Assembly (NCBI RefSeq): GCF_000376805.1 | Contig: NZ_AQXT01000002.1 | Span: 2,914,001-2,978,000, forward strand | Reading direction: 5' to 3' | Origin: Henriciella marina DSM 19595 | GTDB lineage: Bacteria; Pseudomonadota; Alphaproteobacteria; Caulobacterales; Hyphomonadaceae | Length of the DNA stretch: 64,000 bases | In this document: piece by piece, positions 4,075-20,155 of the stretch | Numbering within the stretch: the first letter of the stretch is position 1 | Layout: each line of letters begins with the position of its first letter | Made by a program: the position numbers and the translations under genes | The notes under the pieces: generated by a model | What the model saw: only the letters and a program-made list of their open reading frames with translations | The model's database searches: none | What the model was told of the DNA's origin: nothing

Positions 4075-4109
4075 GGCTTAAAGCCCCCTAGGATTTGGTC
4101 TGGTTGAAG

Positions 4110-4146: not shown

Positions 4147-4158
4147 GAGACAGGGTAT

Positions 4159-4566
4159 TCAGGCGTCGTTGATGTCCTCAAGGTCTTCGGCGGCTGCATA
4201 GGACCCATCCGGCAGGTGGACTTCCTTGCCGGTCACAGGCGGATTGAAGCAGCAGGCCATGTGCAGTTCTTCCTCGGCACGCAGCGTATGCTTGTCGTGC
4301 AGGTTCAGCGCATACATGACGCCAGGCCTGATCTCATGGGTCTCGCCGGTGCCGTGATCCGTGATCGAGCCCTTGCCCTTCATGCAGTACACACTCTCGA
4401 AGTGGTTCTTGTAGTGAAAGATGTGCTCTGAGCCAGCTTCCAGGATCGTGATATGGAAGCTGAAACCCATTTTCTCATCGGCCAGGAGCATCCGGTAGGA
4501 TGTCCATTTGGCGTCAGAGACGGCACGGTCTGTGCCTTTGAGGTCGTTCAGGTCGCGTACAATCAT
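4159..4566 (-). CDS. ectC: L-ectoine synthase EctC
   Basis: 135 residues, normal for EctC. Catalyses cyclising dehydration of N-gamma-acetyl-diaminobutyrate to ectoine in the cytoplasm. It is a small cupin: SEHIFHYKNHFESVYCMKGKG and the later LHDKHTLRAEEELHMACCFNPP contain the conserved metal-cupin and substrate residues (Glu and Tyr of FESVYC, His of LHDKH). It follows ectB by 6 bases; its GGAG lies inside the end of ectB. No ectD (ectoine hydroxylase) is found beside it, so the window supports ectoine rather than hydroxyectoine production. Confidence 0.97.
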   Translation of the reverse strand: MIVRDLNDLKGTDRAVSDAKWTSYRMLLADEKMGFSFHITILEAGSEHIFHYKNHFESVYCMKGKGSITDHGTGETHEIRPGVMYALNLHDKHTLRAEEELHMACCFNPPVTGKEVHLPDGSYAAAEDLEDINDA

Positions 4567-4572
4567 GCTAGC

Positions 4573-5871: not shown

Positions 5872-5930
5872 GCGTTCTGCTCCTGTCATTGGTCTGGTTT
5901 TGGGCGTCTCTAAACGCGAGAAGTGTCGGC

Positions 5931-6437
5931 TCAGCTATTGGCCGGCCGGCCAAAAGGCCCGATTGTCACGAGAATCTCGCTGTCGTGACGGCCTTTGAAA
6001 TGTGTGTCCTTGTCGAAGAACTTGGTGTCTCTCAATGGCGCTTCAAGCCAGCGCGCGAGGCTTTTGAAGAGGCCCCATGATGCCTCATTATCTGGTGTTA
6101 TAGTGGTCTTCAGATAACGCACATCCTTGCAGGACGGGCGGGAGAAGATGTCGGCGACAAGGCGCTTTGGAATGCGTTTGCCACGCGCCTTTTCGCCAAT
6201 GGCCACCTGCCAGAGAAAAAAGACATCCGGCTCGCCGGGTGGAATATGCCCGCTGACCCAACCGATCACCTCGCCATCCTCACGCGCGAGCGCGCACGTC
6301 TCAGCAAAGTGGGTCGTCTGGATCAGGTTCATGTAAAGCGAGTTGGTATCAAGCGGAGGACATGCAGCGATGAGGTCGTGAACGGCTGCGCCGTCCTCGC
6401 TTTTCGGTGCCTCGATTGTGACGGCGTCTGTGATCAT
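5931..6437 (-). CDS. ectA: L-2,4-diaminobutyrate acetyltransferase EctA
   Basis: 168 residues, GNAT fold. Acetylates the gamma amino group of diaminobutyrate using acetyl-CoA. The N-terminal LIAACPPLDTNSLYMNLI is characteristic of EctA, and the acetyl-CoA loop is seen in VAIGEKARGKRIPKRL; KTTITPDNEASWGLFKSLAR follows. First gene of the operon, divergent from ectR with 238 bases between them. The ribosome-binding site is weak (GAAG just before ATG), and a perfect TATAAT lies close upstream. Confidence 0.96.
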   Translation of the reverse strand: MITDAVTIEAPKSEDGAAVHDLIAACPPLDTNSLYMNLIQTTHFAETCALAREDGEVIGWVSGHIPPGEPDVFFLWQVAIGEKARGKRIPKRLVADIFSRPSCKDVRYLKTTITPDNEASWGLFKSLARWLEAPLRDTKFFDKDTHFKGRHDSEILVTIGPFGRPANS

Positions 6438-6675
6438 GTCTTCAAGCCTGCTTCAATTATACAATGGCCAAAGCGCCGCCGAGTTCCCGGTCGAGCGCTT
6501 GCCTGGTAAATATTGTTTGACTATCTATATAAGTATGGCGCAAACGGGGTCAACCCGTGCACGCCGAAGAACTGGATTGAGAGACATCGTTCCTCAAAAG
6601 CCGGAATAAAGACAAAAATAGCCCTAAGAACTGTTTGATACAAAAATATTTTTTAACCAAAGGATCATTGATAAT
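6438..6675. promoter_or_regulatory. ectA/ectR divergent control region
   Basis: 238 AT-rich bases between divergent ectA and ectR. On the minus strand a perfect TATAAT lies at 6461-6456, 19 bases before the ectA ATG; its -35 region is poor, as expected for an activated or repressed promoter. A second AT-rich block (about 6507-6533, TATTGTTTGACTATCTATAT) resembles in composition the pseudopalindromic EctR sites described in methylotrophs and is the most likely operator. A 12-base palindrome AAAAATATTTTT lies at 6642-6653, 22 bases before the ectR ATG. Roles are inferred. Confidence 0.5.
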
Positions 6676-7242
6676 ATGGCGCAACTCTCGGAAGGTTTTG
6701 ATTCCCTGCGCCTGTCAGCGGCGCATGCAGATATGTGGAGCGAGGACATGCAGGATCAGGCGGAAGTTGCACTTGTCGCATTGCGGCGTGTCCTCAAAGC
6801 TACGGCCAGCAACGTGAAGTCGGTTGCCCAGAAGACCGGCCTGACCGCATCGCAACTGCTCGTGCTTCAGGTGCTGCGGACGCAAGGCGATACGCTGACC
6901 GGAGACTTGGCGCGCGCCGTTGACCTCAAGCAGGCGACAATTTCGATCCTGATCGACAAGTTGCAGGAAAACGGTCTTGTTGATCGCAAGCGTGGCGAGA
7001 CCGACCGTCGCCGCGTCTGGGTTCGTCTCACCGACAAGGGCCTCGCCGCGCTTGAGGGCGCGCCCGATCTTCTGCAGGACAGGTTTCGCACGCGATTTGG
7101 CAAACTTGCAGATTGGGAACAGGCGAGCATTACCGCCTCGCTTTTGCGTGTCGTTTCGCTGCTGGATGCAGAAAAGATAGAGGCATCGCCCATCCTTGAC
7201 GTTGCCGATGTGAACGATCCGCCCGTCGGCAAGAAAGCGTGA
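6676..7242 (+). CDS. ectR: MarR-family regulator EctR
   Basis: 188 residues. Winged-helix core is visible: LTASQLLVLQVLRTQGDTLT, then recognition helix LARAVDLKQATISILIDKL, then wing DRKRGETDRRRVWVRLTDKG, the classic MarR D-x-R-D/E-x-R-R type. Divergent from ectABC-ask, the arrangement in which EctR is known to repress ectoine genes at low salinity. The C-terminus carries ~25 extra residues after the dimerisation helix. A small stem-loop (GGCTT-TTT-AAGCC, 7266-7278) follows the stop but lacks a clear U tract. Confidence 0.9.
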   Translation: MAQLSEGFDSLRLSAAHADMWSEDMQDQAEVALVALRRVLKATASNVKSVAQKTGLTASQLLVLQVLRTQGDTLTGDLARAVDLKQATISILIDKLQENGLVDRKRGETDRRRVWVRLTDKGLAALEGAPDLLQDRFRTRFGKLADWEQASITASLLRVVSLLDAEKIEASPILDVADVNDPPVGKKA

Positions 7243-7363
7243 TCGCCGTCGCGGCCACCAATTCAGGCTTTTTAAGCCACCTCTTCCTGTTTTCCTTTTG
7301 CAAGCCGGGGCCGCTGGCCTAGTGTTATGACTGTTCGTTCCAAAGGTTGATGGGAGAGACGAA

Positions 7364-7918
7364 ATGAAATTTCGCATGAGCGCACTGGCGCTGGTTCTGG
7401 CTACGGGTCTTGGCGCTTGCGGCGGCGCGGATGAACCGGCTGATATCGAAGCCGATACGCCGCCTGCAGAGATGTCCACGCCGGATGAAGCTGACGCCGA
7501 AGCGGATACCGAGGCCCCTGTGGAGGCAGAGACCGCATCTGGCCCGGCAGAGGAGAGCGCGCAGCTTGCAAGCCTGCCCGCGCCATATGCCAGCGCCGAT
7601 TACGCGACAGGCAAGCGCCTCTTCATGCAGTGCTCGTCCTGCCACTCGCTGGCTGAAGGCGGCCCGACGCTGCTAGGCCCGAACCTTTACGGCATGTTCG
7701 ACCGTCAGGTCGGCGGCCTCGATAATTTCGACTATTCGCAGGCGCTGCAGGAAGCCGATTTTGAATGGACGCCGGAGCAGCTCGACCAGTGGCTTGCCAG
7801 CCCGCGTAATTTCCTGCCCGGCAACCGTATGAGCTTTGCGGGCGTGCCGCGCGAAGACAACCGCGTTGCGGTCATCGCCTATATCATGAGCGAAACCGGC
7901 TACACGCCGGAGAGCTAG
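7364..7918 (+). CDS. Class I c-type cytochrome, lipoprotein-like
   Basis: 184 residues. A signal sequence ends in LGACGG, a lipobox, so the protein is probably anchored by lipid in the periplasm. Residues ~20-65 form an unusual linker almost entirely of Ala, Asp, Glu, Pro and Thr. The mature domain has one haem site CSSCH and the distal ligand Met in LPGNRMSFAGVP, as in cytochromes c2/c550. Preceded by GGGAGAGACGAA before ATG. The linker would let the haem domain reach partners away from the membrane, for example electrons from FccAB or the molybdenum hydroxylase encoded across the junction; this is inference. Its stop shares the palindrome CTAG with the stop of moeA on the other strand. Confidence 0.9.
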   Translation: MKFRMSALALVLATGLGACGGADEPADIEADTPPAEMSTPDEADAEADTEAPVEAETASGPAEESAQLASLPAPYASADYATGKRLFMQCSSCHSLAEGGPTLLGPNLYGMFDRQVGGLDNFDYSQALQEADFEWTPEQLDQWLASPRNFLPGNRMSFAGVPREDNRVAVIAYIMSETGYTPES

Positions 7919-9126
7919 GCCTCAGACTGAATATGCGCCGGGCTGGTCACCAGAAAGTCGACCAGCTCGCCGCGTTTTCGGGCATCGGCATTCGGCAGGC
8001 GGCGCAGTAGACCTGCGCTATTCACAAACGGCTTTATGAGCGAGCTATCCTGATCGGGTGCCGGGTCGGCCATGAGTTGGCCGCCCACGCCGAAAGACAG
8101 GAAGGCGCGCATGTAGTGCTCACGCGGGCCGTTCGCGGTGAGGTCACAAGCCAGGGTGGCCTGTACGAACTGATGCGGCGTGCCGGTGATCAGCGGTTTC
8201 AGAAACAGTTGCGCGCAAACCAGCGCCGAGGCCGGATTTCCAGGTAGGCCCAGGACGCGCGTCTGCTGGCGCGTTGAAAACCATGTCGGCTTGCCAGGGC
8301 GCACGGCGATTTTCTCAAAGACAGGATCGAAGCCAGCCGCCGCGAAAGCGGGGCGCATCAAATCATGATCGCCAACAGACGCGCCGCCGACAGGCAGGAA
8401 AATGTCGATGTCATTTGCTGCCGCGATGCGCTCGGCGATGGCGTCCAGCGTGTCCTCTGCAATCCCGAGATCGACCGGTTCGCCGCCCCATTCGCGGATG
8501 AGCGCGGCCAGCGCCACCGGGTTGGAATTGACGATTTCTCCGCGGCCGAGCTCACTGCCCGGAGGCTTCAGCTCATTGCCATTTGCAAGGATGCCGATGC
8601 GCAAGCGCCGGGTAACTTCAACGGTGCCGATATTCCCGGCTGCGAGCAGTCCAAGCTCTGCCGCACCGAGAAAAACGCCTTCGCGAAGCAGAACGTCTCC
8701 CTGATCGAAATCGCGGCCCGCCTTGCGGATGAACTGCGACGCGTCATAGCTTTCAGCGCAGACAATCGTGTCGCCGTCGCGTGTCGCATCTTCCTGAATG
8801 ACAATGTGGTCGGCGCCAGCTGGAATCTCACCGCCGGTGAAGATGCGGACGGCCTCGCCGGATGTGATGCTTTCAGTAAACGGTGTGCCTGCCGGGGATG
8901 CACCAACGACGCTCAGGCGCGCGCCTTTCTGGCGGACATCTTCCAGTCTGACCGCGTACCCATCCATCGCGGAGAGATCAGCGGGCGGGCGGCTGACCCC
9001 CGCGGTGATCGTCTCCGCCAGTTGTCGGCCATGGGCGGTTTCGAGCTCAATCGTTTCCGTGCTTTGGGGCAGGGCATGGCGCTGTAGCGCGGCCATCGCT
9101 TCATCGACGCTGATCAGGCCGCTCAT
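7915..9126 (-). CDS. moeA: Molybdopterin molybdenumtransferase MoeA
   Basis: 403 residues, normal length. Inserts molybdate into adenylated molybdopterin. Seen in order: N-terminal [42 protein letters not shown], the MoCF-binding domain with [12 protein letters not shown] and [14 protein letters not shown], and [20 protein letters not shown]. Last gene of the molybdenum run; its ATG overlaps the moaC stop (ATGA). Confidence 0.95.
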
Positions 9127-9605
9127 GAGCCTGCCTTGCGATAGTCGCCCGACTTGCCGCCGGTCTTTTCCAGCAATTCTATGCCCTCAATCGTCATGGA
9201 TTTATCGATCGCCTTCAGCATGTCGTAGAGCGTCAGGCAGGCGGCTGAAACCGCCGTCAGCGCTTCCATTTCGACGCCGGTACGCCCGCTTGTCTTCACC
9301 CGGGCCGTAACGCGCAGGCCGGTGCCCGCATCATTTGGTTCGATCTCCACCTTTACCGACGAAAGCGGCAGCGGATGGCAGAGCGGGATGAGGTCTGACG
9401 TCCTCTTGGCGGCCATGATGCCGGCCAGCTCAGCGATGGAGATGGGGTCGCCCTTCTTGGTGTCGCGTCCGGTCGCCGCCTTCAGAGTCTCGGCGTCCAT
9501 CCGCACCCGGCCATGGGCGACCGCGACACGCTCGGTGACGTCCTTGGCGCCGACATCGACCATGCGAGCGCGGCCATCGGGGCCGATATGGGTGAGATCG
9601 CTCAA
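9123..9605 (-). CDS. moaC: Cyclic pyranopterin monophosphate synthase MoaC
   Basis: 160 residues. Converts the MoaA product (3',8-cyclo-GTP) to cyclic pyranopterin monophosphate. Motifs: [28 protein letters not shown] (active-site region), [20 protein letters not shown] and the KAIDKSM segment with catalytic Asp/Lys. The start is a TTG whose last bases overlap the moaB stop (TTGA); GGAG lies 8 bases upstream, supporting it. Coupled also to moeA downstream. Confidence 0.95.
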
Positions 9606-10147
9606 TGGCCCGGCTCCATATGCTCCATGAGGCGGGGCATCAGCTCCACGAGGTTGCAGGGCTTGTGGCGGCTATCGAGCTGCAGCGAGATGACCTTGTC
9701 CCAGCCATCTTTCACGGCTCCGTTAGAGCCAGGCAGGCAGAAAATGAAGGTGCCGCTGGCGAGGCCTGCAACCGCGCGAGACTGGAGGGTCGAGAGGCCG
9801 ACGCTCTGAAAACTGACCTGATGAAAGATGACCGAGAAGCCGTCGATTACCTTGTCGAACAGCGGCGTGATCGCTTCGGGGGTAATATCGCGGCCGGTGA
9901 GGCCCGTGCCACCTGATGTGATCACGACATCGACGTCCGGATCGGCAATCCAGGCGGAGACCTGCGCCCGGATGGCGGCCTTGTCGTCCGGCACGATCTT
10001 GCGGTCAGCAACGATGTGTCCCGCCGCTTCGATCCGCTTCACCAGCGTGAAGCCGGACGTGTCCGTGTCCAGTGTGCGCGTATCGCTCATCACCAGAACG
10101 GCGATGCGGACGGCGTGAAATTCGAGGCTTTCATTGATGCCGTGCAT
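9602..10147 (-). CDS. moaB: Molybdenum cofactor biosynthesis protein MoaB
   Basis: 181 residues, MoaB/Mog family, which adenylates molybdopterin before metal insertion by MoeA. Motifs: [36 protein letters not shown] (the conserved TSGGTG substrate loop) and [18 protein letters not shown]. One base separates it from the moaE stop, and its own stop overlaps moaC. Confidence 0.93.
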
Positions 10148-10148
10148 G

Positions 10149-10616
10149 TCAGGCTCTCTCTTCGTCTGTCTTCGCCCAGCGGGCGCTGTCGGTATAATCC
10201 TGCTGGCGCGGTTCTATCCAGCGGCTGCCAGTCGGGGTGAGTTCTTTTTTCCAGAAAACCGCTTCGGTCTTGAGGTAGTCCATAAGGAAGTCGGCGGCCT
10301 CGAAGGCGGCGCGTCTATGGGCAGACGCCGTCGCAACGAAAACGATCGGGTCGAACGGCTGCATGTCCCCTGTACGATGAATGACACGGACCGCATCGAG
10401 CGGCCATCGGGCGCGGGCCTGCGAGACGGCCGTTTCGATGCCGTTTTCCGTCATCGGCGAGTATGCCTGAAGGTGAAGTCCGGTCACCTCGCCGTCCGAG
10501 GCGGTGTCCCGCACAAGACCGGTGAAGCTGACAATTGCGCCAGCCCCGCGCGCTGCTGTCTCGAAGGCGGCAAGCGCCTCAGATGGGCGGAAAGGATCGG
10601 GGGAAAGCGTGATCAT
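10149..10616 (-). CDS. moaE: Molybdopterin synthase catalytic subunit MoaE
   Basis: 155 residues. Pairs with thiocarboxylated MoaD to add the two dithiolene sulfurs to cyclic pyranopterin. Visible: GAIVSFTGLVRDTASDGEV, VRVIHRTGDMQPFDPIVFVATASAHRRAAFEA and MDYLKTEAVFWKKELT with the catalytic lysines. It lies between moaD and moaB in the same direction. Confidence 0.95.
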   Translation of the reverse strand: MITLSPDPFRPSEALAAFETAARGAGAIVSFTGLVRDTASDGEVTGLHLQAYSPMTENGIETAVSQARARWPLDAVRVIHRTGDMQPFDPIVFVATASAHRRAAFEAADFLMDYLKTEAVFWKKELTPTGSRWIEPRQQDYTDSARWAKTDEERA

Positions 10617-10624
10617 GGAAAGGC

Positions 10625-10873
10625 TTAGCCGCCACCTACGGGCGGCATGAAAGCGATTTCGTCGGTGGGCGCGACCGGATGTGGATCGACCACAATCTCG
10701 CTGTTCACCGCTAGCCTGACGCTCGCCTCGAGAAAGGCGCCATTTGCCGATTTGGCGTCGTCGAGCCAGCGCCGGAGCGCGGCTGTGTCTGTAATGTCCA
10801 CGGGTATGTCGAGCGTTTCGGCGCCCGTGCCTGTAACATCGCTGAGCCGTCCGAAATAGAGGATATCAGCCAT
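10625..10873 (-). CDS. moaD: Molybdopterin synthase sulfur carrier MoaD
   Basis: 82 residues from the ATG at 10871-10873, 4 bases after the moaA stop; an upstream in-frame start would add 40 residues overlapping moaA and not matching the family. Ubiquitin-like fold beginning MADILYFGRLSDVTG and ending FMPPVGGG, whose terminal Gly-Gly is the site of adenylation and thiocarboxylation. Next gene is its partner moaE. Confidence 0.93.
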   Translation of the reverse strand: MADILYFGRLSDVTGTGAETLDIPVDITDTAALRRWLDDAKSANGAFLEASVRLAVNSEIVVDPHPVAPTDEIAFMPPVGGG

Positions 10874-10877
10874 GGGC

Positions 10878-11909
10878 TCAGCCCCCTGTAACTGACATGT
10901 GGCGATCAAGGGCCGGGTCCTGATTGCGACGATCGATCGCGAAGTCATGACGTTCCGGCTTGGCGATGAGGGCCCGGTCCAGCGCCTCATCAAGCGCTGC
11001 CATTAGATCGTCGCTTTCTCTCAGGGCGGCGCGCAGGTCAATGTGATCATCCTGACCGAGGCACATATAGATGCGGCCCGTGCACGTAACGCGCACGCGG
11101 TTGCAGCCGGCGCAGAAATTATTGGTCAGCGGGGTAATGAAGCCGAGGCGGCCGCCGGTTTCGGCGATGCGGACATAGCGCGACGGGCCGCCATTGGTGT
11201 CGTTCGCCTCTTCAGGCGTCAGTGTCCAGCGGCGTTCCAGTTGGTCGCGGATGTCGAAAAGCGGGATGTACTGGTCGTAGCGATCCTCGCCGGTCAGGCC
11301 GAGTGGCATGACCTCAATCAGCGTCATGTCATGGCCGCGGGCATGGGCCCATTCGACCATTCTGGGGATTTCATCGGCGTTCTGATGGCGCAGGGCGACG
11401 GTGTTGATCTTGATCTTGAGGCCCGCATTCGCGCCTGCCTCAATGCCGCGCATGACCTTGTCATAGTCGCCGCGACGCGTGATCTGGTGGAACATGTCGG
11501 GATCGAGCGTATCGAGCGAGACGTTCACCCGGCGCACGCCAGCTGCGATGAGCGCTTCGGCATTCGCTTCAAGCTGCGTCGCATTGGTGGTGAGGGTGAG
11601 CTCATCGAGGCCATCGCCCAAACGCGCGCCCAGCCCTTCGAAAAGCCGCATGATATCTTTGCGGACCAGTGGCTCCCCGCCTGTGATACGGATCTTCCGG
11701 ACACCGCGCCGGATGAAGGCATCGGCAACGGTCTGCATCTCATCGAGGCTGAGAAGATCCTTCTTGGGCAGGAAGGTCATATGCTCTGCCATGCAATAGG
11801 TGCAGCGAAGGTCGCAGCGGTCCGTGACCGACAGGCGGAGATAGCTGATCTCGCGTCCGAAGCGGTCGATAAGCGGGGCAGGCTTCAGGGCGGTATGTCC
11901 GTCAGGCAT
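10878..11909 (-). CDS. moaA: GTP 3',8-cyclase MoaA
   Basis: 343 residues from the ATG at 11907-11909, which overlaps the end of the upstream fusion gene by 8 bases. Radical-SAM enzyme starting molybdopterin synthesis from GTP. The N-terminal cluster is CDLRCTYCM and the SAM-binding region is [11 protein letters not shown]. The C-terminal substrate-binding 4Fe-4S cluster motif is [16 protein letters not shown] followed by CLG. The usual C-terminal GG of MoaA is present (HMSVTGG). Confidence 0.95.
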
Positions 11910-13395
11910 GCGTAAGTCCTTTCGCGCGATCAAGATCGGCGGTCGTGTCGATGTCCAGCGCGCGGTCAGGCGCAAGATCGACAGTGGCGGTATTGGAAAG
12001 CTGGTTGAAGAGCGACTTGGCGCCGGTGTCGCCAGAGAGCTTTGTCAGCGCATCAAACGTCGAATGATGGAAGATGGCAGGCGGGCAGAGGATACCGTCG
12101 ACCTTGCTCATCGCGGCAGTACGGCCCTGCCTGAAGGCGTCTTTAAGGGCGTGAAGATGGGCGTCGTCGATGTGCGGCATGTCGGCGAGCAGGATGAGCG
12201 CAGCGTTTGCGCCTGTTTTCTGCGCGGCGCGAATACCGACGCTGAGCGATGTGGCCTGACCCTCGGCGGCGTCCGGGTTCTGGGCGACTTGCCAGCCAGA
12301 TGCCGACAGCGCTTCAGCGCGGGGTGCATCGTCTGGGCCAACGATAGCGATGTTTCCGGCGGTCTGTTGCCCGTCCAGAAGATGGGCCGCGTGCTCGAGC
12401 ACGGCTTTGCCGTCCAGCTTGGCCAGCAATTTGTCGCCATTCTCAAACCGGCGAGACTGTCCGGCGGCGAGAAGGATGAGCGCGGTGTCTGCAAAGGCTT
12501 TGCGAAGCGCGTCGTGATAGGCCGCGACGATCTCCGCCAGCACGGAAACCGCCAGCATCGAGGCATCGCGCATGGACGGGATGAGGCCGATCGGTCCGCG
12601 CACGCGTTCAAAGGCGACATCGGACACGCCATTGGCCTTCAGCGCTTCCCAGCGGCGGGCATGGGTTTTCCGGCTGCCGACAGCGCCGATATAGAAGGCC
12701 GGTCCGTCCAGCGCCTGTTTCAGCAGCGGGCCTTCCCAATGGGTGTCGTGGAACATCAGGATAAAGGCCGTCCACGCATCATCATTGGTGGTTGGAATGT
12801 CAGACGGCGTCTCAAGTGGGGTGACACGCTCGAAGCCCTGGTCCTTTGCCGCGGTGACGTCTTCGCCATCGCGAAGCTGGAGGTGAACATCAAGTCCTGC
12901 CGCATGTGCGACGCGGGCGAGGGCGAGGCAGTCGGCGCCGCGTCCGGCAATGCGCAGGCGAGGCTTGGGGACATAGACAGGCGCGAAGCCATCCAGCGGG
13001 TCAAGGTCCAGCCGTGCCGTCTTTCGCGACAGCAGCTGATCGCGAACGGACTTTAGGCTGGCGGTGTCGGCATCCGGAATGATCGTAACTTTGATCGCGC
13101 CGCCGCAGGGGAGCGGCAGGTCTGTGAAGGGCGAACCCGCGCCGTAGCGTAGCTGTTTGGCCTTGCCGGTGCGCAGCGTGTTCTGGGCCTGCAGGGCGAC
13201 ATCTGAATCGATGCACCCGCCAGAGATGTAGCCAGCAATTGCGCCAGCTTCATTCACGGCCATCAGGGCGCCGGGCGCACGCACGGCGCCGCCTTCGATT
13301 GCAGTGACCACGACAAGCGCCGCCGGGCCATCGGCTCGCCAGTCCAGCCATTGGCTGAGCACGTCTTCTGGATGTTCAGGATAGGTCTGCTGCAT
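11902..13395 (-). CDS. XdhC-MocA fusion: MCD cofactor synthesis and delivery
   Basis: About 497 residues; start is ATG 13393-13395 or GTG 13401-13399, and neither has a strong ribosome-binding site. Residues 1-~310 are XdhC/CoxI-like: [49 protein letters not shown], then a Rossmann part with [16 protein letters not shown] and GPIGLIPSM. Residues ~315-497 are a MobA-like nucleotidyltransferase: [33 protein letters not shown], with [11 protein letters not shown] near the end. XdhC chaperones the cofactor and MocA attaches CMP, giving the cytosine dinucleotide form used by xanthine-dehydrogenase-family enzymes such as the IorAB-type one upstream. Confidence 0.9.
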
Positions 13396-13408
13396 GGCCA
13401 CGATGTGT

Positions 13409-13436
13409 TTCGTTCTAAACCATCATTTAGAACGAA
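13409..13436. promoter_or_regulatory. Perfect 11-bp dyad, candidate ModE-type Mo box
   Basis: TTCGTTCTAAA (13409-13419) and TTTAGAACGAA (13426-13436) are exact inverted repeats separated by 6 bases (CCATCA). The layout (CG-containing outer arms, A/T inner arms, N6 spacer) resembles known ModE/Mop molybdate boxes. It lies between the ModE-like gene and the XdhC-MocA gene, 13 bases before the latter's ATG. A third half-site-like GTTCTAA is at 13446-13452. No U run, so not an obvious terminator. Confidence 0.6.
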
Positions 13437-13448
13437 GCCAGCCGAGTT

Positions 13449-13793
13449 CTAACCTTGAAGGCCGCAAAGGGCCTCGATGGATGACATCGAGGCGGTCTCA
13501 GCCGTTTCGGTCACGTCGCCATAGAGCGTGAGGACACGCTTGCCGAGATCGGTGAGCTCGGAGCCGCCGCCCGATGCCCCGCCATGCGATGACGCGATAA
13601 GCGGCTGCGCGAAGTCGGCTTTCATCTCATCGATAAGCTTCAGGGCGCGCGGGTAGGACATGGAGAGCGCCGCCGCGGCCTTGCTGATCGATCCTTCGCT
13701 GTCGATCGCGAGCAGGAGCGCCGCCTTGCCGGGGCCGAAACGGCCGCCATTCGGCAGGTCTATACGTACGCTGAGCTTTGCCTTGCCGGTCAT
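13449..13793 (-). CDS. ModE-like winged-helix regulator lacking TOBE domains
   Basis: 114 residues. Matches only the N-terminal DNA-binding part of ModE (LysR-type HTH): GPGKAALLLAIDSEGSISKAAAALSMSYPRALKLIDEM, followed by SSHGGASGGGSELTDLGKRVL, the ModE wing. Full ModE is about 260 residues with two molybdate-binding TOBE domains; these are absent, as in known short ModE homologues. Its start overlaps the soxA stop (ATGA), so it is translated with the Sox genes. Probably binds the dyad 13 bases beyond its stop; this is inference. Confidence 0.85.
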   Translation of the reverse strand: MTGKAKLSVRIDLPNGGRFGPGKAALLLAIDSEGSISKAAAALSMSYPRALKLIDEMKADFAQPLIASSHGGASGGGSELTDLGKRVLTLYGDVTETAETASMSSIEALCGLQG

Positions 13794-14575
13794 CTGCGGA
13801 CCCCCGGGGCCTCGAGGGTCAGGCCTTGTGCGCGTTTGGCGAGATAGAGCTCAACGGCGAGGTAGTCATCAGAGCCATAGTCGCGGGGCTGTGCCCGCAC
13901 GCCCGCATCGCAGTCGCGCAGCCGTCTGTGGAGCGAGCCAAGCGATTGCCATTCGAGGCGGTAGGCCGGGAAGCCCGTGCCGTGGCCCTGACTGATCGTA
14001 TCGCCGCGCAGTTTCTTGCCCCAATTGTCGTCATGGCACTGGGTGCAGGCGAGGTTGAACTGGCCCCGACGTGTCTCGAAATAGTCGCGTCCGCGGGCAT
14101 ACCAGTTGGCTGCGGCACCTTCGATATCGACGGAGATTGGCGCGCCGCGCGAAAGACTGGCGGTGTAGGCGGTCAGCGCGAGGAGATCGTCGCTTTCATA
14201 TTCCAGCGGCTGAAGGCCTTGATGGCGGGTCCGGCAGAGATTGATCCGGCCTTCAATATTCACAAGGTCGCCGCTCTCTTCGTCGATCTGGGGATAGTGA
14301 GCCGCCGCGCCCGCAAGGGAGAGGCCGTCGTCATTGTGGCAGGTGCTGCAGGCCTTCCCGTCGGCAGGTGCTTCGGAGAAAAGCGCCTCGCCCCTGTCCA
14401 CCCAGAGGAAGCCTGGATTGGCGAAGTCATCATCCTGAAGGGCCTGCGTCTGCGCCTGCAGGAAGTCATAGCCGGATTTGAGCGGGTCGGGGGCGCTATC
14501 GGCAGGCGCCGGACTTGTGTCCGGCTGGCATGCCACAAGAGACAGGATGGCTGAAATGGCGGCGAGGCGCTTCAT
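13790..14575 (-). CDS. soxA: Sulfur-oxidation c-type cytochrome SoxA
   Basis: 261 residues. Signal peptide with lipobox-like LSLVACQP. Haem sites CSTCH (~residue 76) and CTQCH (~180), and the catalytic persulfide cysteine in LRDCDAGVRAQP, equivalent to R-x-C-x-x-G-V-R-A-E-P of SoxA. INLCRTRHQGLQPLEYESDDLLALTAY is also typical. With SoxX it joins a sulfur substrate to the SoxY cysteine in the periplasm. Start overlaps the soxZ stop; stop overlaps the ModE-like start. Confidence 0.93.
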   Translation of the reverse strand: MKRLAAISAILSLVACQPDTSPAPADSAPDPLKSGYDFLQAQTQALQDDDFANPGFLWVDRGEALFSEAPADGKACSTCHNDDGLSLAGAAAHYPQIDEESGDLVNIEGRINLCRTRHQGLQPLEYESDDLLALTAYTASLSRGAPISVDIEGAAANWYARGRDYFETRRGQFNLACTQCHDDNWGKKLRGDTISQGHGTGFPAYRLEWQSLGSLHRRLRDCDAGVRAQPRDYGSDDYLAVELYLAKRAQGLTLEAPGVRR

Positions 14576-14892
14576 TCCACCGTCAGCTCATGGGTCTCGG
14601 ACCAGGTCTCGCCATTCTGGCCGGTCCATGTGAATGCGATGGGTCCGGACGCTGTGGCGCGGGTGTAGAAGGTGAGGATCGGATTGGCTGCAATTCCGGG
14701 TTTGAGCTCAGCCTCGAAAACGGTCTCGCCATCATAGGTGACTTCAAAGCTCTTGATGATGTCCTGTTCGATCGCCTTGCCATCAGGGCCGCTTCGATAC
14801 CCGGTTTCCATAGGGTGCTGGATCAACGCCTTCAGCTCGATGATTTCGCCGCGGCTTGCGGTGTCCGGGGCGGCTATGCGGATGGTTGCCAT
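14572..14892 (-). CDS. soxZ: Sulfur-carrier scaffold SoxZ
   Basis: 106 residues, no signal peptide, as expected because SoxZ is exported as a complex with Tat-dependent SoxY. Immunoglobulin-like: RGEIIELKALIQHPMETGYR near the start, which is the SoxZ signature, then ELKPGIAANPILTFYTRA and FTWTGQNGETW. Follows soxY by 12 bases. Confidence 0.93.
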   Translation of the reverse strand: MATIRIAAPDTASRGEIIELKALIQHPMETGYRSGPDGKAIEQDIIKSFEVTYDGETVFEAELKPGIAANPILTFYTRATASGPIAFTWTGQNGETWSETHELTVE

Positions 14893-14904
14893 TTTTCTGT
14901 CTCC

Positions 14905-15378
14905 CTACCCGATCAGGCAGGCGGCGAGTGTCACCACCGTGCTCGCGGAGCCGTGCCAGAGTGTCCCGTCGCTCATCTCGGCGACGGCCCTGATACGCTG
15001 CGTGCCCGCCATCCGGATACGTGTCGAGACCTCAGCCTTACCGGCGCGGGCCCCAAGTTTGAACAGTGCGACTTCGGCGACCGGATTACGCGGCGAGATG
15101 ATGGCCATGCGTGTCACATGGTTCTTACGCGTCATCGGGCTTTCGGCAGAGATGGTGATGGCGACCGAGTTTCCGTTCTCTGCGATTGGCGGCAGATCGA
15201 CGGTTACGCGGCCCTCATTGAGGGGTTTGTCGCCGAAAATCTCGCGGATCGCAGCGTCAGCATCTGCGGCATCGGCCACCGCGCCAAGCGGGAGGGAGGC
15301 GGCAACGAGACCGGCCGCGCCGGTGAGCAGGAATGCGCGCCGGGCGATGATGAGGGGTGTTTTGCCTGTCGCTGTCAT
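14905..15378 (-). CDS. soxY: Sulfur-carrier SoxY with atypical C-terminus
   Basis: 157 residues. Tat signal (ARRAFLLTGAAGLVAASL). Body matches SoxY: GRVTVDLPPIAENGNSVAI, VTRMAIISPRNPVAEVALFK, and R-M-A-G-T-Q. SoxY normally ends Gly-Gly-Cys-Gly-Gly, with the cysteine carrying the sulfur on a swinging arm. Here the end is T-L-A-A-C-L-I-G: the cysteine (codon 14917-14919) is kept at nearly the right place but the flanking glycines are replaced. See findings. Confidence 0.9.
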   Translation of the reverse strand: MTATGKTPLIIARRAFLLTGAAGLVAASLPLGAVADAADADAAIREIFGDKPLNEGRVTVDLPPIAENGNSVAITISAESPMTRKNHVTRMAIISPRNPVAEVALFKLGARAGKAEVSTRIRMAGTQRIRAVAEMSDGTLWHGSASTVVTLAACLIG

Positions 15379-15833
15379 GTCTGTTCACCATCAAGTGTTG
15401 CGAGGTAAGCCACGAGATCCTCGATCTGCTGGGCATCGAGCGCGGGCTCGCCTCTATATTCATCGCCGACCTGATTAAGGCCGTCTGCTCGATAATATGA
15501 GGGCATTACCGTTTCTGGCCAGAGGCGCTGCGCGTCTGCGATGCGAAGACGGACCTGGCCCTCGCTCAGCCGCGCGCCAACCAGAGTGAGATCTGGACCG
15601 ACACTTCCCTGAAATTCCGTGTCCAGTTGTTGGGCTGCGTGGCAAAGGACGCAGTGGCCTTGCGCGCGCTCGGTGAACACAGCCTCGCCTCTCGTCGCAT
15701 CCCCTTTGAGGCCAAGAAGTGGCGCGTTGATCGCGTCGCCTTCGATCTCTGCCGGAGTAGCAAGCCGAACGTCTGCCTCTGAGCTGCAGGCGGCGAGGCA
15801 GCAGACAATAAGCGGAAAAGCTACGAGCCTCAT
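15375..15833 (-). CDS. soxX: Sulfur-oxidation c-type cytochrome SoxX
   Basis: 152 residues. Signal peptide with lipobox CLAACSS, haem site GHCVLCHAA, distal Met in ETVMPSYYRADGLNQV, and the conserved SVGPDLTLVGARLSEGQ. SoxX is the electron-accepting partner of SoxA. ATGA overlaps on both sides (fccB before, soxY after). Confidence 0.93.
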   Translation of the reverse strand: MRLVAFPLIVCCLAACSSEADVRLATPAEIEGDAINAPLLGLKGDATRGEAVFTERAQGHCVLCHAAQQLDTEFQGSVGPDLTLVGARLSEGQVRLRIADAQRLWPETVMPSYYRADGLNQVGDEYRGEPALDAQQIEDLVAYLATLDGEQT

Positions 15834-17104
15834 CCAAATGTCTGACGGGTGATCTGTTTGAACCAGGCTTCCGCTTCTGCCGCTTCTGCGGCCCGGATGG
15901 CGGGCGCAGCACCTGCGGGGCTGAGACCGCCTGCGCCGTCCATGCTGGAGAGTTTGCCGTCTGCGTTCGAGTAGACGCCGGTGATCGAGACGGCCGCGTC
16001 AGGCGTGACGTAGGAATAGCAGGTATTGGCCAGCACGGTCGGCTCAATGGCGGCGCCGCTGAGGTCGCGCGCAATTTGAAGCGCGCAGAGTTTGGCCTGC
16101 AGGTTGGCGGAGAATGCCGACTTTGGCATCGGGGCCGCAATGGTCGCGTCTCCGATGACGTAGATGTTGTCTTGAAGCGTAGACGAGAAATCGACCGGAT
16201 TGATCGGGCACCAGCCGGTCTGGTCGGCGACGCCTGCGCGGGCCGCAATCTCTCCGGCCTTCTGAGGCGGGATGACGTTGGCGACATCGGCTTTGTAGGT
16301 GTCGAAATCTGTCGAGAGCGTCATGGCTGCCGGATCAACGGAGACGACGCGGCCGAAGTCGCTCGCGCCGACCCATTGCAGATGATCTGGATAGTGCTGC
16401 GCCCACGCTTCCAGAAAGAGCGGCTGCTTGGAGAACTGGTCCTTGGCGTCAAGGATTATGAGCTTCGAGGCTGGCTTCTGCGTCTTGAGATAATGCGCGA
16501 TCAGGCTGGCGCGTTCATATGGGCCGGGCGGACAGCGATAGGGGGCGGCGGGGACCGACATGACGACGAGGCCGCCGTCTTCCATCGCCTCGAGTTGATC
16601 GCGTAGCAGCGTTGTCTGCGGCCCGGCTTTCCAGGCATGCGGCATCACCTGCTGCGCGTCTGGTCCATAGCCTTCGAGCGCGTCCCAGCGGATATCGATC
16701 CCCGGGGACAGGATGAGCCGGTCATAGGACAGGGTGTCGCTAGAGCCGAGCGTCACGGTGCGGGCGGATGGATCGACGTCTTCGGCTCTCTCTTGAATAA
16801 CATTGATGCCTTCGGTTTTCAGCCTGTCGTAGCCGAACGTCTGCGCGCTCATTTCGCGCAGACCTCCGATGACGAGGTTGCTGAACGGACAGGCTGTGTA
16901 GGTCGCCTGCGGCTCGATCAGCGTGACGTCGGCGTCGGCTATGTAGGTCTTGAGGAAACGGGCTGCTGTTGCCCCGCCAAAGCCGCCGCCGATGACCACC
17001 AGACGAGGGCGGGGTTGCGCAAGCGCGGGCGAACCTATGAAGGGCAGGGCGGCGGCGCCCGCCAGTCCGGCGAGCAAGCTTCGTCGCTGCGGGGTCCAGA
17101 CCAT
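15830..17104 (-). CDS. fccB: Flavocytochrome c sulfide dehydrogenase flavoprotein (FccB/SoxF)
   Basis: 424 residues. Tat signal (QRRSLLAGLAGAAAL). FAD-binding RLVVIGGGFGGATAARFL, then YTACPFSNLVIGG and later VLANTCYSYVTPD, which supply the two redox-active cysteines of FccB; NIYVIGDATIAAPMPKSAF is the second FAD motif. Oxidises sulfide or SoxY-bound sulfur in the periplasm, passing electrons to the FccA cytochrome encoded just before it (TAATG overlap). Stop overlaps soxX. Confidence 0.93.
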   Translation of the reverse strand: MVWTPQRRSLLAGLAGAAALPFIGSPALAQPRPRLVVIGGGFGGATAARFLKTYIADADVTLIEPQATYTACPFSNLVIGGLREMSAQTFGYDRLKTEGINVIQERAEDVDPSARTVTLGSSDTLSYDRLILSPGIDIRWDALEGYGPDAQQVMPHAWKAGPQTTLLRDQLEAMEDGGLVVMSVPAAPYRCPPGPYERASLIAHYLKTQKPASKLIILDAKDQFSKQPLFLEAWAQHYPDHLQWVGASDFGRVVSVDPAAMTLSTDFDTYKADVANVIPPQKAGEIAARAGVADQTGWCPINPVDFSSTLQDNIYVIGDATIAAPMPKSAFSANLQAKLCALQIARDLSGAAIEPTVLANTCYSYVTPDAAVSITGVYSNADGKLSSMDGAGGLSPAGAAPAIRAAEAAEAEAWFKQITRQTFG

Positions 17105-17487
17105 TAGTGGGTCTCCTCAAGCGTTGAGAGATACCTGCTGACGGCGGCTATCTCATTGTCGCTATAGCCGCGCATCAGCCTGTGCATGACGGTCGTGCCA
17201 CTCGCATCTTGCTTGTAGGAGAGGAGCCGTGCCTCAAGCTCTTCGTGGGTCAGCACGCCGTAGTCCGGAATGGCCTCACCCTCGCCGCCATGACAGCCAG
17301 AGCATGTCAGCGCGAGGCTTTTGCCGGGATCGATGGCTGCTGAGGGGTCTGCGGCGGACTGCGCCACATTCTCTGGCTGCGGGTCCGCCTGCGCGATGTT
17401 CGGCTCACCGCTACAGGCCGCCAGCAAAAAGCCCGCTGCCGCGGCGAACGCGGCAACGGGCGAAGTCATCTTACGATCAGACCTCAC
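17104..17487 (-). CDS. fccA: Monohaem cytochrome subunit FccA-like
   Basis: 127 residues from a GTG at 17487-17485 that overlaps the upstream stop (GTGA) and has GAGG at 5 bases; an internal ATG six codons on has a badly spaced site. Signal with LLAACSGEP lipobox, one haem site LTCSGCHGGEG, distal Met in TTVMHRLMRGYSDNEI, typical of the cytochrome subunit of sulfide dehydrogenase (one-haem version). Electron acceptor for FccB. Confidence 0.88.
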   Translation of the reverse strand: MRSDRKMTSPVAAFAAAAGFLLAACSGEPNIAQADPQPENVAQSAADPSAAIDPGKSLALTCSGCHGGEGEAIPDYGVLTHEELEARLLSYKQDASGTTVMHRLMRGYSDNEIAAVSRYLSTLEETH

Positions 17488-19688
17488 GCTTTCCTCAGGT
17501 CTTGGTCCTTTACAGGCATGCGGCGGATACGCTTGCCGGTGGCGGCATAAATGGCGTTGAGCACGGCCGGCGCTGCGACAGCGATCGTCGGTTCGCCAAC
17601 GCCGCCCCAGAAACCGCCGGACGGCATGACGATGGTCTCGACTTCCGGCATGTCGCGCACGCGCATCGAGTCGTAGGTGTCGAAATTGGTTTCCTGCACC
17701 TCGCCATTCTCGAAGGTGATCTCTTCGAAGAGCGCTGCCGATAGGCCGTAGACGAAGGAGCCAGCAACCTGTGCATCGATCTGCTGCGGATTGACGGCAT
17801 AGCCGGGATCGGTCGCGGCAACGATGCGGTGGATCTTCAGGCGGCCTTCATCGCTGACGGTCACCTCGGCACAGGCGGCTGTATAGCTGCCGAACGAGTA
17901 GAAGACACAAAGCCCGCGGGCCTTGCCGTCATCGCTGCCCCAGCCGGATTTCTCCGCCACGGCATTGAGAACAGCGGCCATCTGTGGGCTGTCTTTCAGA
18001 TAGTCCAGCCTGAATTCGAGCGGGTCGCGGCCCGCTGCGTGGGCCATCTCGTCCATGAAGCATTCAAGATAGATGGCGTTCTGGTTGGCGTTCACACCGC
18101 GCCAGAAACCCGGCCGGACCGGCGGGTTGCGCATGGCATGGTCCACCTTCAGGGCTGGGAAGGTGTATTTCAGGGTCTGGTCTTCAGCCCGCGCATCCAT
18201 CCCGCTCGGAAGGAGGCCCTGGAAGACATATGGGTCCATCCCGTTCATCAGCGCCTGCGGCATCAGACCTGCGAGGATCGACTGTCCCGCAAGTCGGATC
18301 TTCATGCCGATCAGATTGCCATCAGCGTCGAGAGCACCCTGACAGCGCGCCTGCGTGGTCGGGTGATAGAAGCCATGCTTCATGTCTTCTTCGCGCGACC
18401 AGAGAAGCTTGACCGGTGTGCCGGGCATCTCCTTGGCGATGTTCACGACCTGGGTGACATAGTCGCTCATCCCGCGCCGCCCAAAACCGCCGCCGAGATG
18501 GATCTTGTAGACGTCGCACTGCTCGATAGGCAGGCCAGCGGCCTCTGACGCGGCGCCGAGTGCGGCCTCGCCATTCTGTGTCGGGCACCAGACTTCGCAT
18601 TTGTCCTCGGTCCAGATCGCCGTCGCATTCATCGGCTCCATGCAGGCATGGTTCTGGTTCGGGACGCGATAGGTTGCTTCGACGGTCTGGGCAGCATTGG
18701 AAAATGCGCTGTCGACATCGCCTGCGGTATTACCAACAAAGGCCTCATCAGATGTCAGCGCCTCTTCGAGGCTTTCATCAAATGCAGCGCTCGAATAATC
18801 GGAGCCTTCGCCATCGGTCCATTCGACCTGTAGCGCATCGAGCGCCGTCTTTGCCTGCCACCAATAGTCGGCGACGACCGCGACAGAGCGGTCATCGACA
18901 CGGACGACCTTGCGGACGCCTGGCATCGAGGTCACGGCGCTCTCATCATAAGAGGCGAGCGTTGCGCCGCGTTTTGGGGCCTGAAGGATGGCCGCATTGA
19001 CCATGCCCTCCATCTGAAGGTCCGCACCGTACTTCTGCGCACCCGTGACCTTTTCTTTCGTGTCGAGACGGAGGACGGGCTGCCCGACCAGTTTCCATTC
19101 TGACGGGTCCTTGACTTTCACACCGGTTGGCGGCGTGAGCTTGCTGGCGGCGTCGGCCACTTCGCCAAACCGCAGTTCCTTGCCTGAGGCTCCATGCGTG
19201 ATGACGCCCTTGGAGACCGAACATTCGCCGATCGGAACGCCCCATTGATCAGCAGCCGCCTGGGTCAGCATGACCCGTGCGACGGCGCCGCCTTCGCGGA
19301 CATAATCAACGCTGGCGCGGATACCTTGCGAGCCACCGGTTGAGAAGTCGCGCCAGACGCGGTCGCGCGCGAGATTTTCGCCGGGTGTTGGATATTCGGT
19401 GACGACCTTGTCCCAGTCGCATTCAAGCTCTTCAGCGACGAGCTGGGCGAGGCCTGTCAGCGTGCCCTGGCCCATCTCGGAGCGGGCGATCCGGATCGTG
19501 ACAACATCGTCATTGCCGACATGGACCCATGCATTGACCTCTGGGTTCGGGGCCGCGTTTGCAGCTTGGTCGGCGTCGGGCGCGTCATCTGACCCGCCAG
19601 AACAGGAGGCCAGGATGCCGATTGAAAGCCCGGCGGCGCCAGTGCCGATAATGAAATTGCGGCGTGAAAGCCTGATCGTGTCAGCCAT
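17484..19688 (-). CDS. Molybdenum hydroxylase large subunit, IorB-type, Tat-exported
   Basis: 734 residues from the ATG at 19686-19688. Tat signal LSRRNFIIGTGAAGLSIG followed by ILASCSGG, a possible Tat lipobox. Xanthine-oxidase-family molybdopterin subunit of the isoquinoline 1-oxidoreductase/membrane aldehyde dehydrogenase branch: TRIARS-type RIARSEMGQGTLTGLAQLV, HLGGGFGRRGMSDYV, RPGFWRGVNANQNA, and GGVGEPTIAVAAP with the catalytic Glu. The branch hydroxylates N-heterocycles or aldehydes and feeds electrons to cytochrome c. The substrate is not determinable. It precedes fccA with a GTGA overlap, tying it to the sulfur genes. Confidence 0.9.
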   Translation of the reverse strand: MADTIRLSRRNFIIGTGAAGLSIGILASCSGGSDDAPDADQAANAAPNPEVNAWVHVGNDDVVTIRIARSEMGQGTLTGLAQLVAEELECDWDKVVTEYPTPGENLARDRVWRDFSTGGSQGIRASVDYVREGGAVARVMLTQAAADQWGVPIGECSVSKGVITHGASGKELRFGEVADAASKLTPPTGVKVKDPSEWKLVGQPVLRLDTKEKVTGAQKYGADLQMEGMVNAAILQAPKRGATLASYDESAVTSMPGVRKVVRVDDRSVAVVADYWWQAKTALDALQVEWTDGEGSDYSSAAFDESLEEALTSDEAFVGNTAGDVDSAFSNAAQTVEATYRVPNQNHACMEPMNATAIWTEDKCEVWCPTQNGEAALGAASEAAGLPIEQCDVYKIHLGGGFGRRGMSDYVTQVVNIAKEMPGTPVKLLWSREEDMKHGFYHPTTQARCQGALDADGNLIGMKIRLAGQSILAGLMPQALMNGMDPYVFQGLLPSGMDARAEDQTLKYTFPALKVDHAMRNPPVRPGFWRGVNANQNAIYLECFMDEMAHAAGRDPLEFRLDYLKDSPQMAAVLNAVAEKSGWGSDDGKARGLCVFYSFGSYTAACAEVTVSDEGRLKIHRIVAATDPGYAVNPQQIDAQVAGSFVYGLSAALFEEITFENGEVQETNFDTYDSMRVRDMPEVETIVMPSGGFWGGVGEPTIAVAAPAVLNAIYAATGKRIRRMPVKDQDLRKA

Positions 19689-19702
19689 GTGTCTGCCCTC
19701 CC

Positions 19703-20155
19703 TCAGGCTTTCGTCTTGGCAAGGTGGACACCCTTGCGGACCCGGGCGAGTGTACCGCACCGGCAGATATTGGTGACCTGAGCGTCGATGTCGTCATCGG
19801 TCGGGTCAGGCGTGTTGTTCAGAAGGCCGGCGACGGCCATGATCATGCCAGGCTGGCAATAGCCGCACTGGGGGATGTCCATCTCGACCCAGGCCTGCTG
19901 GACCGGATGGCTTCCATCCTCCGAGAGGCCCTCAATCGTCGTGATCTCTTCGGCACCAGAGAGGGCGCCAACCGGGTACGTACATGAGCGTACGGCCTGG
20001 CCATCGATATGGATCGTGCAGGTGCCGCACTGGGCGATCCCGCACCCATATTTGGCGCCGGTAAGGCCCAGATGCTCACGAAGCACCCACAGAAGCGGTG
20101 TGCTGTCGTCGGCGTCGACGGTGACTGATTTTCCGTTGACCTTGATATCTGCCAT
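19703..20155 (-). CDS. Molybdenum hydroxylase [2Fe-2S] subunit, IorA-type
   Basis: 150 residues from the ATG at 20153-20155, preceded by AGAGGAGGATC. Plant-type ferredoxin cluster ligands in YGCGIAQCGTCTIHIDG plus C in RSCTYP, and the second cluster CGYCQPGMIM with NICRCGT. Small subunit partner of the next gene. It has no signal peptide, so is presumably carried across the membrane with the Tat-tagged large subunit. First gene of the 16-gene run. Confidence 0.93.
   Translation of the reverse strand: MADIKVNGKSVTVDADDSTPLLWVLREHLGLTGAKYGCGIAQCGTCTIHIDGQAVRSCTYPVGALSGAEEITTIEGLSEDGSHPVQQAWVEMDIPQCGYCQPGMIMAVAGLLNNTPDPTDDDIDAQVTNICRCGTLARVRKGVHLAKTKA

Follow-up and report, generated by a model that had tools for sequence, protein, structure and literature searches.

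In the canonical Sox system, the arm of the carrier protein SoxY enters SoxB. Here we describe a different kind of Sox gene set in Henriciella marina DSM 19595 (Hyphomonadaceae), in which soxXYZA lie in one operon with iorAB, the genes for an IorAB-type molybdenum hydroxylase, and with genes for synthesis of the molybdenum cofactor (Moco). The operon was analysed within a stretch of 64,000 nucleotides (contig NZ_AQXT01000002.1, positions 2,914,001 to 2,978,000), which we call the window and to which coordinates refer unless another locus is named. Like the Paracoccus-type system (with SoxEF), the operon encodes SoxX, a SoxA with its active cysteine, a SoxY with its cysteine, SoxZ and a flavoprotein of the SoxF/FccB type. 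Unlike that system, it lacks SoxB and SoxCD, its SoxY arm reads AAC.. rather than GGCGG, its SoxY, SoxZ and SoxA belong to a separate tree group, and it is tied to iorAB. The gene set soxXYZABC has been reported in metagenome-assembled genomes of Alphaproteobacteria (PMC10654063, excerpted text).

The family TIGR04487 is named 'SoxY-related AACIE arm protein', a name that carries no function; our analysis adds that IorAB is its constant partner and that the cluster contains no SoxB. NCBI annotates SoxY under this name in Methylobacterium sp. NMS14P and Neorhizobium galegae, with the same module genes around it. A literature search found no description, at the level of titles and abstracts, of a link between IorAB and this type of SoxY, and no paper using the terms 'AACIE arm', 'SoxY-related' or 'SoxY_para_1'. 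According to the excerpted text of a 2024 study of SoxY variants (PMC11237559), SoxY sequences without the GGC motif were deleted before its tree was built, so that SoxY with an altered arm was left out; the same text argued for roles of other SoxYZ variants in the metabolism of alcohols and organosulfur compounds. Fused SoxYZ-like carriers encoded beside pyrroloquinoline quinone (PQQ) dehydrogenases (TIGR04557; signatures S2/S4 in the excerpt of PMC11237559; also the excerpt of PMC12997753) are similar in that a SoxYZ-type carrier is linked to a periplasmic enzyme that dehydrogenates organic compounds. They differ in being fused and in their neighbours, which are a PQQ enzyme and genes for rhodanese and SoxH-like proteins, whereas the operon has separate SoxY and SoxZ, together with SoxXA and a molybdenum enzyme.

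IorAB shares with the membrane-bound aldehyde dehydrogenase 8gy3 its fold (template modelling (TM) score 0.81), a [2Fe-2S] subunit, a signal resembling those of twin-arginine translocation (Tat) and the Glu of a GxGEP motif. It differs in having only 28% identity in the fold alignment and in having Sox cytochrome and SoxYZ genes beside it; known membrane-bound aldehyde dehydrogenases have a three-haem subunit. Enzymes of the IorAB family are known to hydroxylate carbon. Overall, our results point to a sulfur-handling system carried by many alphaproteobacteria, in which a reduced Sox set without SoxB and with a changed carrier arm lies beside a periplasmic molybdenum enzyme.

Co-occurrence of IorAB with an altered SoxY

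Among 105 genomes of the family (our own included; SoxY threshold E 1e-10, module-type IorB above 1100 bits), IorB scored 1116–1461 bits in 47 genomes, with all other matches at or below 515, and SoxY was present in exactly the same 47. The two genes lie on the same contig and strand, 2042–2247 bp apart, in 45 of these genomes and on different contigs in two. SoxB was found in none of the 105 at E 1e-50, in a scan whose 14 controls gave no signal; the same model was over its cut-off in 24 of the 47 genomes of the SoxY-based scan described below.

The preliminary description of this locus had proposed a variant without soxB or soxCD, tied to a periplasmic hydroxylase of the IorAB type. Searches of the whole genome bear this out: no soxB-soxCD set lies elsewhere, with zero matches at E 0.001 to SoxB (TIGR04486) and to the sulfite-oxidase fold PF00174 (SoxC/SorA/YedY), SoxD not having been searched by itself. 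We considered whether SoxB was overlooked through an assembly gap. This is ruled out by the completeness of the genome (3.28 Mb in two contigs, rated 100% complete) and by the absence of SoxB from all 105 family genomes.

The order iorAB-(cytc-fccB)-soxXYZA recurs across Alphaproteobacteria in many families, so the arrangement seen here is shared with related genomes. In a class-level sample, at least 29 of 385 genomes carry IorB above 1100 bits; this is a lower bound, as two candidates were scored per genome and copies cut by contig ends (G273, G298) score lower. For the 27 class genomes outside the family, SoxY is adjacent to IorB in 20, a non-GGCGG SoxY lies elsewhere in the genome in six, and one has none (genome-wide SoxY searches at this level covered 15 chosen genomes of the 385). 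Among the six, the non-GGCGG SoxY is on another contig than IorB in G244, G222, G242 and G278, and goes with a second iorAB, 46–48% identical, in G520 and G442. The one without, the single-contig genome G217 (locus L154), keeps soxX-soxA beside iorAB and gives no SoxY match at E 1e-8 anywhere in its sequence, leaving SoxXA beside IorAB without a carrier. SoxB is over its cut-off in seven of 30 class-level genomes (the 27 plus G238, G350 and G273).

Wherever the DNA could show it, the altered SoxY occurs with IorAB; this covers the sets assembled from SoxY first, namely the 105 family genomes, the 24 loci described next and two of three close plasmid matches. The operon core is conserved far beyond the genus, and a chance arrangement is unlikely. 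IorAB and this Sox set are very probably linked in function.

The SoxY arm and the Sox tree

The operon's SoxY (14905..15378, minus strand, as for every operon gene below) retains its cysteine and ends in VTLAACLIG, with AC.. in place of GGCGG. It scores best with TIGR04487 (165.5 bits, slightly under the cut-off of 172) and falls below the cut-off of TIGR04488, the true SoxY family (102 versus 125 bits). Five of the seven first-tier relatives tested exceed the TIGR04487 cut-off (L020 204.9, L022 194.0, L027 192.4, L151 192.3 and L010 178.0 bits), with near misses in L002 (170.7) and L040 (160.6) as well as the window; second-tier proteins score far lower (L159 115.1, L207 90.6). A higher score with TIGR04487 than with TIGR04488 is not diagnostic, since the GGCGG-type SoxY of L023 shows the same (170.3 versus 152.6). 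In a predicted structure of the operon's SoxY (mean predicted local distance difference test score, pLDDT, 81.5), confidence is low at the signal region and in the last seven residues, as expected of a mobile arm.

A SoxY-based scan yielded 47 loci chosen regardless of IorB, 24 with non-GGCGG tails (mostly LAAC followed by L, I, V or T) and 23 with GGCGG. Adjoining the sox genes in 23 of the 24 non-GGCGG loci is iorB; the remaining one (L001) starts inside fccB. SoxB is over its cut-off in three of the 24 genomes with non-GGCGG loci (G020, G027, G040) versus 21 of the 23 GGCGG genomes, the other two having a partial match of 443 bits (G035) and one of 131 bits (G038). In the non-GGCGG set, G021 has two weak SoxB matches of 67 and 47 bits. 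Near SoxB itself, every SoxY tail is GGCGG (23 of 23: all 17 recovered from 20 SoxB loci, and six of six more from the seven SoxB over cut-off). This includes G020 and G027, where SoxB has a GGCGG SoxY beside it (L057, L048), and therefore both systems can coexist in one genome.

In a tree of SoxY, SoxZ and SoxA with the arm columns removed, 52 non-GGCGG rows fall on one side of a single branch with 99 support in the Shimodaira–Hasegawa-like approximate likelihood ratio test (SH-aLRT), and the arm differs from GGCGG in every row of this group. The tree is unrooted, made by a quick method from 71 of 82 rows, 11 having been dropped for want of a usable SoxA or SoxY (L023, L024, L025, L029, L038, L048, L057, L160, L191, L192 and L207). 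Given the separate tree group and the changed SoxY arm, the Sox part of the operon is not simply a standard Sox system minus some genes.

The partner proteins are of recognizable Sox type: SoxX (15375..15833) is a c-type cytochrome with a lipobox (TIGR04485, 75.4 bits, cut-off 61), SoxZ (14572..14892) scores 87.1 bits with TIGR04490 (cut-off 76), and SoxA (13790..14575), also with a lipobox, scores 228.6 bits with TIGR04484 (cut-off 110). As in canonical SoxXA, the haem motifs (two in SoxA) and the active-site cysteine are present; the latter aligns with 1h31 and 2c1d and is kept in 52 of 53 rows, the remaining one being cut by a contig end. Among the 22 GGCGG-type SoxA rows compared, three (L048, L057, L191) appear to be false matches at the ends of their loci.

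IorAB with and without Sox neighbours

The gene iorA (19703..20155; ATG at 20155, GAGGAG upstream) encodes the [2Fe-2S] subunit (Fer2 and Fer2_2 over cut-off), and iorB (17484..19688) the Moco subunit (MoCoBD_1/2), with a Tat-like signal, a lipobox LASC (both by eye) and the Glu of GVGEP. Together they have the make-up of an IorAB-type hydroxylase. The closest solved relative of IorB is 8gy3_C from Gluconobacter (E 7.7e-83). The Glu is invariant across 15 aligned rows and readable in 49 of 58 locus rows; the nine gaps seem to be truncated extractions.

In the IorB tree, 56 rows, drawn from the module (iorAB-soxXYZA) and a second tier, group together (SH-aLRT 96); 44 of them are Sox-adjacent, five have Sox elsewhere or are cut by a contig end, and seven have no Sox neighbours. 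These seven belong to Rhizobiaceae (four, one group), Methylosinus (one) and G520/G442 (two, one group). The proportions do not amount to a survey, as many rows were chosen through SoxY; the tree is unrooted, made by a quick method from 65 of 67 rows (L021 and L169 dropped as short), with L207 and L212 on very long branches.

Those two loci, outside the 56-row group, have SoxYZ beside a distant IorAB. In L207 (G242:C24, about 4100–7820), a second, distant iorAB (33% IorB identity) lies divergent beside soxYZ, with the tail VIGACEGLGFTY and no soxX or soxA match within 14 kb. In L212 (G350:C99, 20–4305) the genes run soxY-soxZ-soxA-iorA-iorB; its IorB is very divergent (29%) and its SoxY is non-GGCGG (SGACIEPGE). 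Additional copies occur in two Henriciella genomes, where a second iorAB (IorB 32–33% identical) lies directly upstream of the module (L003, 2221–5000; L004, 2290–5000), and weak IorB matches (23–24%) were seen near GGCGG-type sox in L031 and L036. The iorAB without Sox neighbours of Sinorhizobium meliloti LMB1 (L217; L223 is likewise S. meliloti) adjoins a c-type cytochrome, and that of Methylosinus trichosporium OB3b (L218) an annotated arylsulfatase, a multihaem cytochrome and xdhC.

FccAB and other neighbouring genes

Between iorB and soxX lie a small c-type cytochrome gene (17104..17487, Cytochrom_C over cut-off) and fccB/soxF (15830..17104), for the flavin subunit of a flavocytochrome c sulfide dehydrogenase with a Tat-like signal (FCSD_central, FCSD-flav_bind). 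The cytochrome, first described as FccA, has 127 residues, one CxxCH and a lipobox, and thus is not of the two-haem kind. One-haem FccA exist among known ones, and the position of the gene directly before fccB makes its product a putative FccA subunit only. FccB aligns with 5n1t_A (E 8.5e-125), including the cysteines of RCPPGP and TCYS; both redox cysteines are kept in 37 of 37 rows.

Of 52 loci, 35 have fccB between iorB and soxY (soxX used in place of soxY for L154; six of 58 loci have no iorB-sox pair). It is not there in the other 17, of which L144 has an fccB-like gene downstream, and in four second-tier loci soxY follows just 123–147 bp after iorB (L161 being a fragment at a contig end). 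FccAB thus looks accessory, as iorAB is kept in these 17 loci. On the same ground we rejected FccAB as the core sulfur recipient as a general rule, and the earlier proposal that SoxYZ passes its sulfur to FccAB is weakened.

Clustering of 461 heuristic open reading frames from 49 loci, none overlapping module genes, gave few recurrent neighbours (named by eye, with Pfam used for L020 and L040). The commonest were ATP-binding cassette (ABC)-ATPase-like (10 loci, 14 reading frames), amidase-like (four: L020, L040, L147, L150) and tripartite ATP-independent periplasmic (TRAP)-transporter-like (four: L020, L136, L140, L145); all other groups occur in three loci or fewer. Three of the 49 (L010, L136, L148) have a sulfatase-like reading frame close to the module, recognised by eye from its CxPSR motif.

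Moco genes, operon layout and signals

The 16 genes share the minus strand and run from 20155 down to 7915 in the order iorA, iorB, small cytochrome c, fccB, soxX, soxY, soxZ, soxA, short modE, xdhC-mocA, moaA, moaD, moaE, moaB, moaC, moeA. The description of a single-direction operon with mostly short overlaps holds: nine of 15 junctions overlap by 1–8 bases, after the starts of iorB (19688, with the Tat signal), moaA (11909) and moaD (10873) were re-chosen. The six others have gaps of 14, 12, 47, 4, 8 and 1 bases, of which the 47 bases between modE and xdhC are the sole sizeable one.

Downstream of soxA, the short modE (13449..13793; 114 residues, DNA-binding part only) scores 63.5 bits with TIGR00637, under the cut-off of 98.5, and is followed by a fusion of the maturation factor XdhC with the cytidylyltransferase MocA (11902..13401; XdhC_CoxI, XdhC_C and NTP_transf_3 over cut-off). 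Then come moaA (10878..11909; TIGR02666, 357.5 bits, cut-off 284.05), moaD (10625..10873; TIGR01682, 63.8 bits, slightly under 66.15), moaE (10149..10616; NF007959, 145.8 bits, under 175), moaB (9602..10147; TIGR02667, 257 bits, cut-off 222.4), moaC (9123..9605; TIGR00581, 199.3 bits, cut-off 141.5) and moeA (7915..9126; NF007960, 284.3 bits, under 440).

The operon holds the only moaC of the genome, so its Moco genes presumably supply cofactor to all three molybdenum hydroxylases found, which are of the xanthine dehydrogenase family: the operon's IorB and two others, each of the latter preceded by an FAD-subunit-like reading frame (by eye). The lone PF00384 protein of the genome is NuoG-like and adjoins a NuoH-like reading frame (by eye). 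The idea that the adjoining genes make the cofactor for IorAB on the spot is thus favoured by the single moaC, but two more hydroxylases need the same cofactor. Nor do these genes belong to the system as a rule: present here, they adjoin the module in Hyphomonadaceae loci only, and not in all of those. Two Ponticaulis loci (L015, L019) have them upstream of iorAB, and in the recovered DNA of L017 and L018 they were not seen; xdhC adjoins the module in L022.

Lipobox-like signals in the window and L002–L019 are found in IorB (17 of 18), the small cytochrome (19 of 19), SoxX (13 of 19) and SoxA (18 of 19), versus 2 of 38, 1 of 11, 1 of 29 and 1 of 32 in other families; SoxY and FccB have none. 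Immediately beyond iorB, the first part of the cytochrome gene contains a terminator-like hairpin in the operon's sense (17461–17431, minus strand; 13 pairs, 11 of them G-C, then TTTTT), which could dampen expression of the sox genes. Within soxX there is a promoter-like site in the same sense (15521–15492). Promoter-like sites number two versus 2.7 expected by chance, and terminator-like sites 17 versus 9.6 +/- 3.3.

A short-chain dehydrogenase/reductase (SDR) gene lies 213 bases before the operon start. At the other end, a cytochrome c550-like gene with a lipobox (by eye; 7364–7918, plus strand) is convergent with moeA, overlapping it tail-to-tail by four bases, and ectB- and ectA-like genes (by eye) lie at 4573–6437 on the minus strand.

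Discussion

In the sets assembled from SoxY, the altered SoxY always occurs with IorAB where the DNA could show it, but IorAB can lack Sox neighbours; this suggests that IorAB is the primary enzyme, with SoxXA-SoxYZ as a partner that handles sulfur. SoxXA-SoxYZ could act downstream, taking the sulfur of the IorAB substrate or product, or as a helper of IorAB; we prefer sulfur handling coupled to IorAB catalysis, with the helper role next. Our leading reading, held tentatively, is that iorAB-soxXYZA form a dedicated periplasmic module, in which IorAB oxidises at carbon and the altered SoxXA-SoxYZ handles linked sulfur species whose load is not released as sulfate. IorAB, a molybdenum hydroxylase of two subunits, would be exported through Tat, oxidise a carbon of its substrate and probably pass the electrons to c-type cytochromes; signals predict a periplasmic location for the module proteins. 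The preliminary description had proposed an organosulfur or heterocyclic compound as a candidate substrate. SoxXA, with its catalytic cysteine intact, would oxidatively couple a sulfur species, the sulfur moiety of the IorAB substrate or product, to the cysteine of the modified SoxYZ. Because there is no SoxB, the load would stay at the thiol or sulfane level; the lack of SoxB together with the changed arm fits a carrier that no longer releases sulfate. FccAB, in about two thirds of loci, may be on hand to oxidise sulfide or sulfane sulfur.

Several observations weigh against this reading. The nearest solved enzyme to IorB is an aldehyde dehydrogenase. IorAB of the module type occurs without Sox neighbours (6–9 kb on each side) in Sinorhizobium meliloti, Rhizobium sullae, Rhizobium sp. 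007 and Methylosinus trichosporium, and one copy each in G520 and G442 likewise; these nest inside the Sox-linked clade, and therefore the IorAB reaction does not need SoxYZ everywhere. In G242 and G278 the IorAB and Sox genes are not adjacent, and the co-occurrence counts come from related genomes that are not phylogenetically independent. Among the 49 loci clustered, no clear catabolic or substrate-naming gene is common. The lipoprotein pattern may be a habit of the family, as the cytochrome at 7364 carries a lipobox too (by eye).

An alternative that we consider unlikely, though it follows the preferred one, is that SoxXA-SoxYZ carries sulfur in the periplasm to renew or safeguard the Mo=S sulfido ligand of IorAB or thiols that the enzyme needs, working at the sulfane level, where SoxB and SoxCD are unneeded. 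The asymmetry noted above, with altered SoxY not found without IorAB in the genome in the sets examined and IorAB occurring without Sox neighbours, is what would be expected of a helper, and the want of a substrate-specific gene common to most loci agrees with it. Yet IorAB of the same clade manages without Sox neighbours in Rhizobiaceae and Methylosinus, and SoxXA plus FccAB seem excessive for repair. Moreover, sulfuration of enzymes of the xanthine dehydrogenase type is established as cytoplasmic, by XdhC-type factors, and xdhC-mocA sits in this very operon. The stronger claim, that SoxXA-SoxYZ of this arm type is not engaged in sulfur oxidation at all and instead is a periplasmic sulfur-delivery system for inserting or mending the sulfido ligand of an exported molybdenum hydroxylase, seems quite unlikely; if true, SoxYZ would be a cofactor-maintenance carrier.

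It also appears improbable that SoxXA, SoxYZ and FccAB serve lithotrophy or detoxification by turning sulfide or thiosulfate into sulfane sulfur products, with IorAB merely co-regulated. FccB does retain both redox cysteines of sulfide dehydrogenases and SoxXA is intact, but the distribution runs the other way: IorAB stays in the 17 loci where fccB is not between iorB and sox, SoxY tracks IorAB exactly in presence and absence over 105 genomes, and the arm is non-GGCGG throughout the tree group. That IorAB replaces SoxCD by acting directly on SoxY-bound sulfur is very improbable, since enzymes of its family hydroxylate carbon and relatives exist without Sox neighbours, even though IorAB and SoxCD are both periplasmic molybdenum enzymes encoded beside SoxYZ and soxY follows iorB closely in four loci. 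That redox and cofactor genes have come to be neighbours by chance would account for the hairpin and the promoter-like site inside the operon (promoter-like sites being at chance level) and fits the Moco genes, which outside Hyphomonadaceae are not found next to the module, but is extremely unlikely and hard to hold for iorAB-soxXYZA, whose order is kept across many families with co-occurrence in 47 of 47 genomes.

With these results, a named SoxY family without a stated function gains a constant partner and a testable role. They also serve as a warning that soxXYZA in a genome need not mean thiosulfate oxidation. Cultured hosts, including Henriciella and Hyphomonas strains, Methylobacterium sp. 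NMS14P and Neorhizobium galegae, make the module testable now. More broadly, the association of this carrier with a molybdenum enzyme suggests that SoxYZ carriers and periplasmic dehydrogenases acting on organic compounds have come together on more than one occasion.

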